From positions 1 to 62,632 of the forward strand of contig NZ_CAMQZG010000020.1 in the NCBI RefSeq assembly GCF_947039605.1: DNA of 62,632 nt. Reading direction: 5' to 3'. The notes below the pieces were generated by a model, which saw only the letters and a list, made by a program, of their open reading frames with translations, was not told the origin of the DNA and did not search any database. Every line of letters begins with the position of its first letter. Positions within the stretch are counted from its first letter, which is position 1. Below are positions 4,400 to 60,658 of the stretch, one piece after another. The position numbers and the translations under genes were made by a program. This stretch comes from an uncultured Clostridium sp. Lineage in GTDB: Bacteria > Bacillota > Clostridia > Clostridiales > Clostridiaceae.

Positions 4400-4822
4400 A
4401 TTCGTTTAATTTATTAATTCATTAATTTAAATTCGTTTTATCTTTTGTTAATTTATTTATATGTAGTAACCAGATTTACTGGTTACTCTAAATTCAATTT
4501 ATAATTTTTATGAAACTCTATTTAGATTCGTTGGCTAAATAGGTTTTCTATATTTAAAATTGTATTATTTATCTTTATTACTACTACTTTATAATTGCTG
4601 CACTTAGATACTTAACCTTTCGATACAGTATCTAAGCAAATTTACTTATAATAAGGAAAACATCACTATTCCTTTTATAAGTTTTTTGATTTAAAGGAAA
4701 CTCGACTCACATTCGTTCGCTGAGTAAGAATTTATACCCAAATCATAGCTTTAAATGAACACAACCAAACAAGTTGGTTGCGAAAGTTCCACTACCCAAA
4801 TCATAGATTTGGAGTGTCACTT
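4400..4822. repeat. Array of hairpins downstream of guaA
   Basis: This 420-base stretch has no gene but a dense series of inverted repeats. Hairpin arms are 4465-4473/4479-4487, 4518-4525/4535-4542, 4603-4611/4628-4636, 4644-4650/4676-4682, 4705-4709/4721-4725, 4762-4768/4774-4780 and 4796-4801/4807-4812. ATTCGTT occurs at 4400, 4431, 4526 and 4711. Two units, 4512-4542 and 4697-4725, share GAAACTC, then a stem, ATTCGTT, and the other stem arm, with different but still paired stems. TACCCAAATCATAG is repeated directly at 4735-4748 and 4793-4806. This looks like dispersed palindromic repeats or a structured 3' untranslated region; function unknown. Confidence 0.65.
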
Positions 4823-6352
4823 TTATTCCCATTCTATAGTTGCAGGTGGTTTAGAAGTTACATCATAAACTATTCTATTTACTCCTGGAACTTCATTAAC
4901 TATCCTTCTTGATACTACTTCAATTACTTCGTAAGGAATATGATACCAATTAGATGTCATACCATCTGTTGATTTAACTGCTCTAAGACCTACTGTGTGA
5001 CAATAAGTTCTTGCATCCCCCATAACTCCAACTGATTGGATGTTAGGTAAAACTGCAAAGTACTGCCATATATCTTCATCAAGACCTGCATTTGCAACTT
5101 CTTCTCTAAATATTGCATCAGCTTCTCTAACTATTTCAAGTTTTTCTTCAGTTACATCACCAAGAACTCTTATTCCAAGACCTGGTCCTGGGAAAGGCTG
5201 TCTCCATACTAATTTATGTGGAATTCCAAGCTCTTCTCCAACAGCTCTAACTTCATCTTTAAATAATTCTCTTAAAGGTTCAATAAGTTTGAACTCCATA
5301 TCCTCTGGAAGTCCACCAACATTGTGGTGACTCTTAATCACAGCTGATGTTTCAGTTCCACTCTCAACTACATCTGGGTAAATTGTACCTTGAACTAAGA
5401 ACTTAATATCTCCAAGCTTTTTAGACTCTTCTTCAAATACTCTAATAAACTCTTCACCAATTATTTTTCTCTTAGCCTCTGGCTCTGATACTCCAGCAAG
5501 TTTTCCAAGGAATCTCTCCTTAGCATTAACTCTTATAAGATTCATATCAAATTGTTCACTAAAGATTTTCTCAACTTGATCTCCCTCATCTTTTCTAAGT
5601 AAACCATGATCTACAAATATACAAGTAAGTTGCTTACCAACAGCTTTGTGAATCATAACAGCCGCAACTGATGAATCAACCCCACCTGATAAAGCACATA
5701 TAAGTTTTTGATCTCCAACAAGCTCTTTAATTTCCTTAATCTTAGTCTCAGCAAAAGCTGACATTGTCCAAGATTTTTCAAGTCCACATATATCGTGTAC
5801 AAAGTTTGCAAGAAGTTTTCTTCCAAATGGAGTATGCTCTACCTCTGGATGGAACTGAACTCCATAAATTTTCTTCTGTGCATTTTCAATAGCTGCCATA
5901 GGTGAATTCCCTGTTTTAGCAGTTACTTTGAAACCTGTTGGTGCTTCTTCTACATAATCTACATGTGTCATCCAACAAAATTCATTTGCTGAAATCCCTT
6001 TGAATAACTCTGATGTTGTATCAATTTCAATAGCAGTTTTACCATGCTCTCCACTTGGAGCTGTAGTAACCTTTCCACCTAAAGCATGAGCCATTAATTG
6101 CTCACCATAGCATATTCCAAGAACTGGAACACCGATTTCATAGATAGCCTTATCTATTGATGGTGATTTACTATCATAAACTGAATTTGGTCCACCTGTA
6201 AAGATTATTCCTTTTGGGTTTCTTGATTTTATCTTCTCTACCCCATGTGTATAAGGAACTATTTCACAATAAACTCCACACTCTCTAACTCTTCTTGCTA
6301 TAAGTTGACCATATTGTCCACCAAAGTCAACAATTAAAACTAAATCCTTCAT
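4823..6352 (-). CDS. guaA: GMP synthase (glutamine-hydrolysing)
   Basis: Converts XMP, ATP and glutamine to GMP, the last step of guanine nucleotide synthesis. The 509 residues have the usual order: an N-terminal class I glutamine amidotransferase domain with nucleophile Cys81 (GICYGEQ) and His/Glu in [10 protein letters not shown], an ATP-pyrophosphatase P-loop LSGGVDSS near 220, and a C-terminal dimerisation domain ending PPATIEWE. The length is normal. It starts after AAAGGAG, 39 bases downstream of guaB, so the two form one operon under the guanine riboswitch at 8036-8100. Downstream is the hairpin-rich segment at 4362-4822. Confidence 0.98.
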
Positions 6353-8009: not shown

Positions 8010-8035
8010 ACTTTAAAAGTTAGCTATATCAAATC

Positions 8036-8100
8036 ACTCATAGAGGAGAATTAATGGTTCTCCGTAGATACACCTTGCCATATCCAAGATTTATACGAGT
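8036..8100 (-). ncRNA. Guanine-class purine riboswitch aptamer
   Basis: Read on the minus strand, P1 arms are ACTCGTA (8100-8094) and TATGAGT (8042-8036). The core GGATATGGCAAGG and the J2/3 segment TATCTAC match the purine riboswitch consensus. P3 has GGAGAA/TTCTCC arms. The J3/1 segment reads TCTATG, with C at the ligand-pairing position (position 74 in xpt numbering), which selects guanine over adenine; the conserved U51 is also present. With the terminator at 7967-8009 this is an OFF switch for guaB-guaA. Confidence 0.93.
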
Positions 8101-8142
8101 ATTTTAAAAATATTTCTTTTTTTAGTTCGTTGATTTTTATTA

Positions 8143-40092: not shown

Positions 40093-41808
40093 TTAGAATA
40101 ATAAGTATCTTTGTGTTAATGGTAATTCTGTAGCTGGCTCACATCTTATTGCAACACCATCTACTGAAACTACATAACTTTGAGAATCAACTTCTATTTT
40201 AGGAGTTGCATCATTAAATATCATATCTTTTTTAGATAAGTTTCTTATACCATGAACTGGTAATACTTGCTTATCAAGTTTTAGTTCTTCTTTAATTCCA
40301 TTTTCATAAGCAACTTTTGATACGAATGTTATACATGTATCTCCAGGACCTTTTCCACCTGCATAGTACATATCTCTAAGTACTCTTGGTTGTACAGTTG
40401 GGATTGATGCATTAGCATCTCCTGAAACTGCCATAACTGTTAATCCTTTTTTGATTATAGCTTCTGGTTTAGCTCCAAAGAATTGTGGTGTCCACATTAC
40501 TAAGTCAGCATATTTGCCTACTTCAACTGAACCGATATAATCTGAAATACCTTGAGTTATAGCTGGGTTGATTGTATATTTAGCAACATATCTTTTAATT
40601 CTGTTATTATCGTTAAATTCACTATCTCCTTCTAATACTCCTCTGTGATTTTTCATATGGTGAGCTACTTGCCATGTTCTAGTAATAACTTCACCAATTC
40701 TACCCATTGCGATAGCATCTGAACTTGTCATACTAATAACACCCATATCGTGAAGAACATCTTCAGCTTCGATTGTTTGGTGTCTGATTCTTGAGTCAGC
40801 AAAAGCTACGTCCTCAGGAATTTTATTATCTAAGTGGTGACAAACCATAAGCATATCTAAGTGCTCAGCAATTGTGTTCACTGTGTATGGAAGTGTTGGG
40901 CTTGTTGATGATGGTAATACATAGTCGTATTGTGCAGCCTTGATAATATCAGGAGCATGACCTCCACCAGCACCTTCTGTATGGAATGTATGTATAACCC
41001 TTCCATCAATAGCTTCCATAGTATTTTCTAAGAATCCACACTCATTTAATGTATCTGTGTGTATTGATACTTGAATATCATATTTATCAGCTATTTCTAG
41101 TGCTTTATCAATACACCCTGCAGTAGCACCCCAGTCTTCGTGTATTTTAAGCCCAGCAGCACCAGCTTCTATTTGCTCAGCTCCTGGAGCTTCTGTATAA
41201 GCCGCAGCTTTTCCTAATATACCAACATTTATTGGGAAACTATCATGTGCTCTTAACATTTCTTTAATGTGGTAAGGTCCTGGTGTAGCTGTAACGGCAT
41301 TTGATCCATCATTAGGGCCAGTTCCTCCACCAAATATTGTTGTTATTCCACCTTGTAAAGCAACCTTAATTAAATCAGGGTTGATCATGTGAACGTGTGA
41401 ATCTATTCCACCAGCAGTGATTATAAATCCTTCTCCAGCTAAAGCTTCTGTAGCAACACCAACGATGAAATCTACATCATCCATAAGATCTGGATTTCCA
41501 CCTTTACCAATAGCAAGGATTTTTCCATCTCTAATACCGATATCAGCTTTATAAACTCCTGTATAATCTATAATTGTAGCTCCTGATATTATTAAGTCAG
41601 CTACTAATGGATTATTTCTTGATTCTGTTATGTTCATTCCCATACCAGCTCTAAGTGTTTTTCCACCACCAAACTTTGCCTCATCTCCGTGCTTAGTTAA
41701 GTCTTTTTCTATCGCTGCAAATAAGTTGGTGTCACCTAATCTAAAACTATCTCCAACTGTTGGTCCAAACATATCTACGTATGATTTTCTATTCATTTCA
41801 AAACTCAT
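40093..41808 (-). CDS. ureC: Urease subunit alpha (catalytic)
   Basis: A 571-residue amidohydrolase holding the dinickel centre; hydrolyses urea to ammonia and carbamate. Nickel ligands and catalytic residues are visible: HVH in [13 protein letters not shown], the carbamylated Lys in GLKIHEDWG, His in [10 protein letters not shown] and [14 protein letters not shown], the mobile flap Cys-His in MVCHHLDNK, and the Asp ligand in [12 protein letters not shown]. The length is standard. AGGAGGT precedes the ATG. It lies in ureABCEFGD with separate A and B subunits. Confidence 0.99.
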
Positions 41809-57464: not shown

Positions 57465-59855
57465 TTACTTTTTAACTCTCAAAACCCTCATTGCATTTAA
57501 AACAGCTAAAATAGCAACTCCTACATCTGCAAAAACAGCTTCCCACATTGTAGCCATTCCACCTGCTGCAAAAACTAAAACAATTAACTTAATTCCTAGT
57601 GCAAAAATAATATTTTGCCAAACTATTTTTCTTGTTCTTTTTGCAATTTTAATTGCATCTATTATTTTACTTGGCTCATCTTTCATGATTACAACATCTG
57701 CCGCTTCTATAGCTGCATCTGATCCTACGCCCCCCATTGCAATACCAATATCAGCTCTTGCAAGAACTGGTGCATCATTTATTCCATCACCAACAAATAT
57801 AACATTTTCTTTTTCCTTTTTATTAGAAAGTATATTTTCTAATCTTTCTACTTTATCTTGTGGTAATAATTCTGTATAAATTTCATCAAGCCCAAGCTCT
57901 TTTCCAACTATCTCTCCAGCCTTTTTATTATCACCTGTTAACATAACAGTTTTAATTCCAAGAGCTTTAAGTTTTTTAATTGCTTCTCTAGAATCATCTT
58001 TAATTTTATCACCAATTAAGATACTTCCAACAAACTCTCCATCTACTGCAAAATAAATTATTGTTCCTACTTCATTTATTTCAAAATAAGAAATATTATT
58101 TTCTATCATTAATTTAGCATTTCCTGCTAAAACTTTTTTATCTGATATATTTAAAGATATTCCTCTTCCTGCTATTTCTTCATAATCAGTAATTATATCT
58201 TTATTTATCTTTCCTTTAAATTCCTCAAGTATAGATTTTGCTATTGGGTGATTAGAAAGATACTCACTATATGCTGCAAGTTCTAATAATTCTTCCTTTT
58301 CCATCCCAGTTGGTTTTATATCTAAAACTTTAAATTTCCCCTCTGTAAGTGTACCTGTCTTATCAAATACAACAGTTTTAACTGAATTTAATGCTTCTAA
58401 ATAATTTCCACCTTTAATAAGAATTCCATTTTTAGATGCTGCACCAATCCCTCCAAAGAACCCTAGTGGAATTGATACTACTAAAGCACAAGGGCAAGAT
58501 ACCACAAGGAATACTAGTCCTCTTTCAAGCCACTCTTTAAAACTACCATCTTGCAAAATAAATGGTGGTACTATTGCAAGCATTGCTGCTATTATAACAA
58601 CTACTGGTGTATAATATCTTGAGAATTTAGTTACAAACTTCTCTGTTGGAGCTTTTTTATTTCCTGCATTTTCTACAAGTTCTAATATTTTTGATAATGT
58701 AGATTCTTTAAATATATTTACAACTCTAAGCTTTATCACACCATTTAAATTTATACATCCTGCTAAAACCTCATCATTTAGTCTAGCAGTTCTAGGTACT
58801 GATTCTCCTGTAAGTGCTGATGTATCAAGGCTTGTATTACCCTCTATTAGAACACCATCAAGTGGAACTCTCTCACCTGCTCTTACTAAAATTATTTCAT
58901 CAACTTTAACACCATAAGGTGAAATTGTTTTTTCTTCATTATCTCTTATAACCCTTGCAAAATCTGGTTTAATATCCATAAGTGATGATATTGATTTTCT
59001 TGAGTTATTAACTGCATAACCTTGGAACATCTCACCAATCTCATAGAACATTATAACTGCAACGGCTTCTGGGTGTTCCCCTATAAGAAATGCACCTATA
59101 CTCGCAATAGTCATAAGGAAGTTTTCATCAAAAATATTCTTAGCTCTAAATATATTCTTAACTGCTTTCCATACTGTTGGGTATCCTAAAATAACATAAC
59201 TGACTACAAATATTCCATCATTAACTTTATCACTAAAGCCTGAAAGCTGTGCTACTAAGAATAATATAACCCCAATAACAAATCTTGTTATATTAAAAAC
59301 ATTAAGACTTGATTCAACTTTAAATTCTTTTGGTTCCTCTGATATTTCTATCTCTTCATCATAATTTATTTCTAGTTCATCTATCACCTTTACATCTGGT
59401 TCAAGTTTAAATATTATATCTCTTATTTCTTTTTTTACTTTATCTATATCCTTTGCATCATTAAGCTTTACAGCTAATGTTTTTACTGTAAAATTTAATG
59501 TCGCTTCTTTAACTTCGCTAAGTGCATTAGTCTTTTCTTCTATTTTACCTGCACATCCTGCACAATTTAAATCTTTTAATGTAAGTTTAAAATTCTTTGA
59601 TATATTTAATTTCTCAACTACATTTTTTTCTTCTTCCCTAACTTTAACATCTGGTTCTAATTTATATATAATATCTTTAACTGTTGATATAATTTCGTCT
59701 TCATCTTTTCTGTCATTCAATTCAATTAATAGTGTCTTAGTTGTAAAATTTAAGCTTGCTTCTTTAACCTTTAAAAGTTTTGAAGTTTTATCTTCTATCT
59801 TTCTAGCACAACCAGCACAATTAAGACCATCTAAGTAAAGTTTTACCTCACTCAT
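57465..59855 (-). CDS. cadA: P1B-type heavy-metal-exporting ATPase (Zn/Cd/Pb, CadA/ZntA type)
   Basis: A 796-residue pump with two N-terminal HMA domains, each with a CxxC metal site (GLNCAGCARKIEDKT near 10 and DLNCAGCAGKIEEKT near 96). Then come eight hydrophobic helices, the membrane metal motif SCPCALVVSIP, the phosphorylation site VFDKTGTLTEG, HP motif SNHPIAKS, TGDNKKAG and GDGINDAPVLARADIGIAMG. The Gly-Val-Gly-Ser-Asp stretch after that motif and the Lys/Asp in the last helices (IIFALGIKLIVL and VFADVGVAILAVLNAMRV) are typical of Zn/Cd/Pb rather than Cu pumps. It is paired with an ArsR-family repressor upstream. AGGAGG precedes the ATG. Confidence 0.93.
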   Translation of the reverse strand: MSEVKLYLDGLNCAGCARKIEDKTSKLLKVKEASLNFTTKTLLIELNDRKDEDEIISTVKDIIYKLEPDVKVREEEKNVVEKLNISKNFKLTLKDLNCAGCAGKIEEKTNALSEVKEATLNFTVKTLAVKLNDAKDIDKVKKEIRDIIFKLEPDVKVIDELEINYDEEIEISEEPKEFKVESSLNVFNITRFVIGVILFLVAQLSGFSDKVNDGIFVVSYVILGYPTVWKAVKNIFRAKNIFDENFLMTIASIGAFLIGEHPEAVAVIMFYEIGEMFQGYAVNNSRKSISSLMDIKPDFARVIRDNEEKTISPYGVKVDEIILVRAGERVPLDGVLIEGNTSLDTSALTGESVPRTARLNDEVLAGCINLNGVIKLRVVNIFKESTLSKILELVENAGNKKAPTEKFVTKFSRYYTPVVVIIAAMLAIVPPFILQDGSFKEWLERGLVFLVVSCPCALVVSIPLGFFGGIGAASKNGILIKGGNYLEALNSVKTVVFDKTGTLTEGKFKVLDIKPTGMEKEELLELAAYSEYLSNHPIAKSILEEFKGKINKDIITDYEEIAGRGISLNISDKKVLAGNAKLMIENNISYFEINEVGTIIYFAVDGEFVGSILIGDKIKDDSREAIKKLKALGIKTVMLTGDNKKAGEIVGKELGLDEIYTELLPQDKVERLENILSNKKEKENVIFVGDGINDAPVLARADIGIAMGGVGSDAAIEAADVVIMKDEPSKIIDAIKIAKRTRKIVWQNIIFALGIKLIVLVFAAGGMATMWEAVFADVGVAILAVLNAMRVLRVKK

Positions 59856-59880
59856 AAAAAAAACCTCCTCTCTAAAATAT

Positions 59881-60176
59881 GGTCAAATATACCCTGTTAT
59901 ATATTTAGGTACATTCTTGCGGGGATTTTTCTTCTCGCCAATGACAATATATCGCGCATGTGATTAGGTGTTTGACATCAGGACAATAGAAGTCGGTCAT
60001 CCTTCCTCACTCTTAGAGCCTCAAACTGAAAATACATTCAAGGGTAAGTCTTTAGCTAAATATATAATCGGAGTTCACAGTGCAACAAACTTTCGCTACG
60101 TAGCACTCACTAAGGCTTGAAACCTACCAACAAGTATATAGATAAATATATTTGCCCACATTTTTCTATATTTGCC
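59881..60176 (-). ncRNA. Candidate structured RNA or small repeat element between repressor and pump
   Basis: About 300 bases without a gene, near 40 percent G+C in its core (24 and 23 of 60 bases at 59941-60000 and 60001-60060), while surrounding spacers are nearly pure A/T. The ends can pair: minus-strand TATACTTGTT (about 60140-60131) with AACAGGGTATA (about 59896-59886) and TAGGT with ACCTA next to it, enclosing local hairpins such as GTGCTAC/GTTGCAC. TATATTTGCC is repeated at 60147-60156 and 60167-60176, and its inverse-like GGTCAAATATA starts at 59881. It matches no riboswitch core I know. It may be a metal-responsive leader, a small RNA or a mini transposon. Confidence 0.45.
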
Positions 60177-60204
60177 TATATAATAGACTACTTATTGATT
60201 AGTC

Positions 60205-60576
60205 CTATTCGTTTATATGATTTAATCCCTCATTAAATATGTGTTTAACATGATCGTCGTCTAATGAATAATACACAGCTTTTCCTTCTTTTCTAAACTT
60301 TACAAGCTTTGCATTCTTTAGAACTCTAAGTTGATGAGATACTGCTGATTGGCTCATTCCAAGTGTTGTTGCTATATCACAAACACACATTTCAGCTTCA
60401 AATAAAGAGCATAAAATTTTTATTCTTGTGCTATCCCCAAATACTTTGAATAGTTCTGCTAAGTCATATAAAGTTTCTTCTTTTGGAAGCTTCTCTCTAA
60501 CTCTTAAAACTACTTCACCATGAATTGCGTTCTCTTCACATCTATCTATGCATTTATCTATATTCTCATTACTCAT
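60205..60576 (-). CDS. cadC: ArsR/SmtB-family metal-responsive repressor (CadC-like)
   Basis: A 123-residue winged-helix repressor. Metal sites of two kinds seem present: N-terminal cysteines (CIDRCEE) with CVCD in EAEMCVCDIATTLGMSQ (the alpha-3 Cd/Pb/Zn site) and the C-terminal DDDHVKHIFNEGLNH (alpha-5 site). The recognition helix is SQSAVSHQLRVLKNAKLV and the wing FRKEGKAVYYSLDD. A longer in-frame start at 60615 lies inside the operator; the ATG at 60576 has GGAGGG seven bases upstream and gives the family length. It should repress itself, and probably the pump gene, until zinc, cadmium or lead binds. Confidence 0.92.
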   Translation of the reverse strand: MSNENIDKCIDRCEENAIHGEVVLRVREKLPKEETLYDLAELFKVFGDSTRIKILCSLFEAEMCVCDIATTLGMSQSAVSHQLRVLKNAKLVKFRKEGKAVYYSLDDDHVKHIFNEGLNHINE

Positions 60577-60596
60577 TGTTTTCCCTCCAATTGTTT

Positions 60597-60618
60597 CATA
60601 TGAATGATTGTTCATATG
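60597..60618 (-). promoter_or_regulatory. ArsR/SmtB-type operator of the repressor gene
   Basis: A perfect palindrome with arms CATATGAA (60597-60604) and TTCATATG (60611-60618) and a six-base spacer, the usual 12-2-12 form for this family. It lies just downstream of the -10 box at 60630-60635, covering the expected transcription start. Confidence 0.88.
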
Positions 60619-60629
60619 TTCATACTTTC

Positions 60630-60658
60630 ATTATATGCATCTTCTTCCAAATGGTCAA
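60630..60658 (-). promoter_or_regulatory. Sigma-A promoter of the ArsR-family gene
   Basis: On the minus strand TTGACC (60658-60653) and a perfect TATAAT (60635-60630) are 17 bases apart, immediately before the operator. Confidence 0.88.

Follow-up and report, generated by a model that had tools for sequence, protein, structure and literature searches.

Mini-elements of the IS200/IS605 type and of the IscB type keep the ends of a transposable element while the coding gene is missing, and they are often multi-copy. IscB nucleases are related to the ancestor of Cas9. They take HEARO RNA as their guide, and only few HEARO nucleases are found together with TnpA (PMC9755519). Here, we analysed a 62,632-nt stretch of a contig of an uncultured Clostridium sp. 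(hereafter the window), in which a segment lying between a metal-sensing repressor gene and a metal pump gene resembles these mini-elements in its apparently kept ends and missing coding gene, but differs from them in being single-copy in its genome. Quite probably, this segment derives from an IscB (HEARO-type) transposable element that inserted, oriented like the operon, into the pump gene's Shine-Dalgarno sequence, lost its IscB gene by deletion and is now a non-autonomous, RNA-only passenger, immobile and co-transcribed.

The segment had been singled out in a sequence-only reading, which placed it correctly between the two genes. Its core at 59923-60114 is indeed richer in G+C than the whole window (0.40 vs. 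0.31). The pairing of its ends noted in that reading is real, with 10 matching positions when one mismatch is allowed, but modest, being equalled by 21 of 1000 random pieces of the window. Similarly, the local hairpins are present, but the folding energy is ordinary: compared with 200 shuffles, the z score is −1.20 for the plus strand, with 26 of the shuffles folding as well, and −0.35 for the minus strand, with 71 doing so. Folding energy, significant on neither strand, was thus rejected as evidence for structure, and it is homology and covariation that support the structure of the segment. The natural unit extends beyond the segment first described, to about 59867-60203, and is read in the minus-strand sense (Table 1). 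Both neighbouring genes are on the same strand, about 350 bp apart. Near the listed smtB start, an inverted repeat, CATATGAATGATTGTTCATATG, is found at 60597-60618, which we take to resemble an ArsR/SmtB operator; translation of smtB may in fact begin at an internal ATG.

Table 1. Features of the element and its surroundings; positions are those of the window.
Feature	Positions	Strand	Basis
Whole inserted element	59867..60203 (337 bp; left end 60203, right end 59867)	-	Left junction: about 20 related copies; right end predicted from related right ends and Shine-Dalgarno model
OmegaRNA scaffold core	59920..60120	-	Model R1 positions 1-201 of 201, 133.4 bits; Rfam HEARO 59923-60114, 33.8 bits, cut-off 83
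Closing stem P1, left-end strand	60189..60202	-	12-pair stem over 11 copies; also in predicted fold of the window's left end
Closing stem P1, partner strand just before core	60124..60136	-	Stem count over 11 copies; predicted fold
Presumed right-end tail CATATTTTAGAGAGG	59867..59881	-	Resembles, by eye, L107 right end CATACTTTAGAAAGG
Guide segment predicted for the RNA, should it ever be used (end of smtB)	60204..60223	-	OmegaRNA architecture
cadA Shine-Dalgarno AGAGAGGAGG after insertion	59864..59873 (host half 59864-59866)	-	Sequence
smtB/arsR-type metal repressor gene (ORF as listed; an internal start is possible)	60205..60615	-	PF01022, 3.3e-19
Heavy-metal P-type ATPase, cadA/zntA-like pump	57465..59855	-	PF00122, PF00702, two HMA domains
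Promoter-like site ahead of smtB (TTGACC-17-TATAAT, 11 of 12)	60630..60658	-	Number of such sites in region at chance level

At gathering scores, the Rfam scan of the window gave nothing in the segment. No riboswitch family reached threshold there, in agreement with the earlier statement that known riboswitch cores are not seen, and riboswitch, 6S, tmRNA and T-box readings of the segment were rejected, no such Rfam match being found in it. Elsewhere in the window, Rfam matches a Purine riboswitch at 8021-8118 on the minus strand (67.5 bits) and 5_ureB_sRNA at 41364-41627 on the plus strand (61.8 bits). The latter is antisense to the urease alpha-subunit frame at 40093-41808 and probably reflects conserved coding sequence rather than an RNA gene. 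A permissive Rfam scan of 59600-60400, of the kind that the sequence-only reading had proposed, gave HEARO (RF02033) on the minus strand, with 33.8 bits and an E value of 3.6e-5. This match covers the full model (positions 1-211 of 211) and shares its core elements, but it remains below the gathering score of 83 bits.

A family-level HEARO search matched 16 of 206 genomes at E ≤ 0.001, and 11 of those were above the cut-off. Weak-scoring copies lie directly upstream of IscB frames of 374–432 aa, in the 5′ leader of these genes, and they form a divergent clade to which the window RNA belongs; the window differs from them in having no IscB gene beside the RNA. Three IscB proteins of the weak-scoring group all carry PF14239 and HNH domains in Pfam, and these three together with one canonical IscB (4/4) reach the cut-off of NF040563 (guided_IscB). 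The solved protein nearest to the IscB of one relative, L101, is HfmIscB (PDB 9k2z; E 7.9e-195, residues 17-425). This likeness is one of the L101 protein; the window has the RNA only.

A covariance search, also suggested beforehand, was made with a model (R1) of 18 clade RNAs from which the window RNA had been left out. The window RNA scored 133.4 bits over its full length, with an E value of 9.1e-31 for the whole genome. In an order-wide search with R1, 14 of 225 genomes matched, the window's own among them, and no match was found in the six other genomes of its genus. By blastn, the window copy is 85% identical to L099 over 143 nt and 69% identical to L061 over 275 nt. Five copies outside the model scored 156, 147, 135.5, 134 and 113 bits. 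Long IscB frames accompany the three highest-scoring ones (L125, L126, and L127); the fourth (L128) has a short IscB remnant only, and the last (L133) lacks the 3′ end of the RNA and the initial portion of IscB. The window RNA thus scores like the poorer or defective copies of the clade. In the best-registered alignment, which was obtained with a looser gap penalty, it retains 82 of the 87 strongly conserved columns and 73 of the 76 that are invariant, and each of the other 17 copies misses at most four and two of these, respectively. At other settings, the counts of conserved columns for the window are 74/87 (default), 77/91, and 78/86; default alignments misplace one extra window base near GTGAACT, and the copy then looks more decayed. 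It departs from more conserved columns than any other copy. Judged by its sequence and structure homology to RNAs directly upstream of IscB genes, the window RNA is a divergent HEARO-type RNA, namely the omegaRNA scaffold of IscB nucleases, encoded on the minus strand.

Exact-pattern scans for the clade gave nine genome and five viral loci, some of which are records of insertions already found. No other copies were found in plasmids, and the phage collection gave one copy, L061. Because none of six scanned clade loci reaches the HEARO gathering score, standard annotation misses at least these. The L061 copy, located at 4468-4990 of the faecal phage record MT835533.1, matches the left 395 nt and the right 151 nt of L101 without most of the IscB gene; from these matches, it is an internal-deletion derivative of the same clade's element. 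L096 is also defective, being without the left end and part of the HNH region. Near one IscB element of genome G075, a T-box leader (126 bits) is found at L093 2685-2914 on the minus strand. G075 also has canonical HEARO RNAs, L034 and L052, without an adjoining IscB-like frame of at least 80 aa. Like the window RNA, these orphans have no neighbouring nuclease, but IscB genes occur elsewhere in G075 and were not found in the genome of the window.

Copies of the window's sub-clade start with ACTAAYTGTTAAG or a similar sequence directly after a host GG, and this left-end sequence pairs with the segment just before the core. Over 11 copies and 12 pairs, 98.5% of the 132 cells are paired, and four of the 12 pairs are changed on both sides. 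The covariation score of this closing stem was reached by none of 500 shuffles, and the pairing falls to 26–50% when the partner strand is slid by 1–3 columns. The alignment was made by sequence, and the stem itself was picked from the same sequences. Three pair types occur in the window copy alone, and the covariation thus stems in part from the tested copy itself. The window element has an intact left end with a covarying stem. At the left junctions of L101 and L106, the left-end GACTAA appears, by eye, to give the interrupted upstream gene a stop codon.

At other smtB loci, the two genes are much closer. In all 29 other displayed loci (26 found by a script motif and three by eye), a heavy-metal-domain gene starts about 10–76 nt after smtB without the segment; in one of them, L082, this gene encodes a short domain protein rather than a pump. 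In the sister genome G200, which has the closest SmtB, the smtB stop overlaps the Shine-Dalgarno sequence and the junction reads AATAAGGAGG. The window reads GAATAGG, the element, and then AGGTTTTTTTTATG, from which we place the element at 59867-60203, within the pump gene's Shine-Dalgarno sequence, which it splits. The exact position of its right end is an inference, because no empty site for its sub-clade was found among viral contigs and phages. The last bases of the element itself appear to restore the Shine-Dalgarno sequence AGAGAGGAGG, 8 nt before the cadA ATG, and the insertion was thus probably nearly harmless to the pump gene. Among three sdaA homologues, one (L176) has a Shine-Dalgarno sequence that lies partly within the end of the preceding gene; this agrees with a split site without proving it.

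These loci also bear on the earlier suggestion that the segment is a metal-responsive leader RNA, i.e., a riboswitch controlling the pump. Its position before a metal-pump gene, the raised G+C and the hairpins would suit such an RNA. However, no riboswitch matches in the segment, the 29 smtB loci are all without it, and its homologues, which are IscB omegaRNAs, precede unrelated genes, e.g., glgA, ilvD and an HU-like gene. Having found neither a known aptamer nor a recurring place before metal genes, we regard a metal riboswitch as hardly credible.

Returning to the IscB-derived element, no IscB frame lies next to the window RNA. A protein search of the window's genome for IscB gave none (best E 0.038, 32% over 53 residues), and neither did a Pfam search; none of 14 control genomes rang in that search, though the model does match proteins of the clade. 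The genome is a draft of 99 contigs. Since no remnant of an IscB frame is left in the element, we can only infer that the gene was lost by internal deletion. The other possibility raised in the sequence-only reading, a mini transposon, was right in substance, the element being of the IscB kind, but its many dispersed copies were not borne out: only the element itself is above noise in its own genome, where a MITE-like element would have several copies, and no target-site duplication is seen at the one readable empty site of a relative.

Could a host Y1 transposase still mobilise the element in trans, so that it would count as a living mini-element? The left end is kept and the right end is plausible, HEARO nucleases are in any case seldom found with TnpA, and the genome has one intact Y1 transposase frame of 135 aa (G000 C37:7784-8149) as well as fragments. 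Broken or partial Y1 frames are located at C5:92303-92642 and C85:5368-5514 of the same genome. Nevertheless, the element is a single copy, its conserved columns are partly decayed, and nothing shows that the host Y1 transposase recognises its ends, and so we consider continued mobility unlikely and an immobile passenger the better description.

The smtB-cadA interval contains no terminator-like site. The best promoter-like site precedes smtB, with such sites occurring in the region at chance number. The element is thus probably co-transcribed with the smtB-cadA operon. By analogy with omegaRNA architecture, the guide of the window RNA would be the last 20 bases before the insertion, and, with up to three mismatches allowed, these bases are found nowhere in the genome but at their own place. 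The RNA would therefore bear the end of smtB as its guide and would be active only if IscB came in trans; it would then mark element-free smtB-cadA alleles for cutting.

An orphan RNA of this sort might also have been adopted by the host, either acting in cis within the smtB-cadA message or guiding a nuclease that other elements provide. The scaffold is largely kept despite the missing nuclease gene, the closing stem has the three paired changes of the window's own, and the RNA lies in sense orientation in the operon with no terminator-like site between the genes. All the same, a recent loss of the gene explains this state equally well, the absence from the six other genomes of the genus gives no conservation to back a function, and no IscB was found in the genome for the RNA to guide. 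Host adoption is accordingly very improbable in our view.

The placement in a Shine-Dalgarno sequence is shared by other members of the clade. For the ilvD insertion of genome G127 (ACTAGGG, element, AGGTTAT), the element-free sequence in two near-identical genomes (98.5 and 97.0%) is ACTAGGGAGGTTAT: the insertion is clean (AGGG^AGG), without target duplication. This trait of the IS200/IS605 type is thus seen in a relative, the window's own species having given no empty allele. At glgA, 16 loci of other genomes of the G075 genus are purine-rich where G075 carries the insertion. Among 20 distinct readable insertions, 18 have a start codon 5–8 nt after AGG (16) or AG (2) at the right junction, the exceptions being L104 and L112; 17 of these 18 open a frame of at least 45 aa, and that of L107 is 11 aa. 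As a yardstick, 129 of 2613 AGG sites in 15 of the source sequences of these insertions meet the start-codon and 45-aa rule. The junction strings, including that of L133, were chosen by eye, and the 20 leave out L105, L111, L113 and L114, which end before the junction, L127 and L128, which have no recognisable right end, and duplicate records. At the left side, AGG or GGG stands just before the end in 23 of 24 copies as read by eye, L128 being without it; no left end was in hand for L096 and L104. Directly before model position 1 of canonical HEARO copies, AGG is found in none of 21 and GGG in one (L036). The members located in sense-direction Shine-Dalgarno motifs are L061, L093-L101, L106, L107, L115, L117, L125, L126, L133, and positions 59864-60203 of the window.

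From these flanks, an AGG target-adjacent motif is predicted for the clade, somewhat like the NGG motif of Cas9. Measurements on other IscB or IsrB proteins gave different motifs, such as NTAAA and NTGA (PMC13180657, PMC9581776). It is possible, and we propose it tentatively, that this IscB clade is specialised on ribosome-binding sites: it would split AGG^AGG in the sense direction, leave or restore the host Shine-Dalgarno sequence, take its guide from just upstream and use an AGG-type target-adjacent motif, and the RNA-only derivative in the window, transcribed with a metal-controlled operon, would let an incoming IscB of the clade defend the place of the element. The kind of element is already known from a relative with a solved structure (HfmIscB), and the ribosome-binding-site targeting is the interesting part: in our literature search it appeared in no title or abstract start, and it stands unchecked against the founding HEARO, ISC and IscB papers, which are outside the coverage of that search.

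With this reading, a transposon derivative would account for an orphan structured RNA in a metal-resistance operon, and the IscB guide RNAs of a clade overlooked by standard RNA annotation come into view. The clade would expose a strategy of mobile elements, that is, landing in Shine-Dalgarno sequences while keeping them usable, and this strategy gives a testable prediction of the target-adjacent motif for IscB nucleases that have a solved relative.
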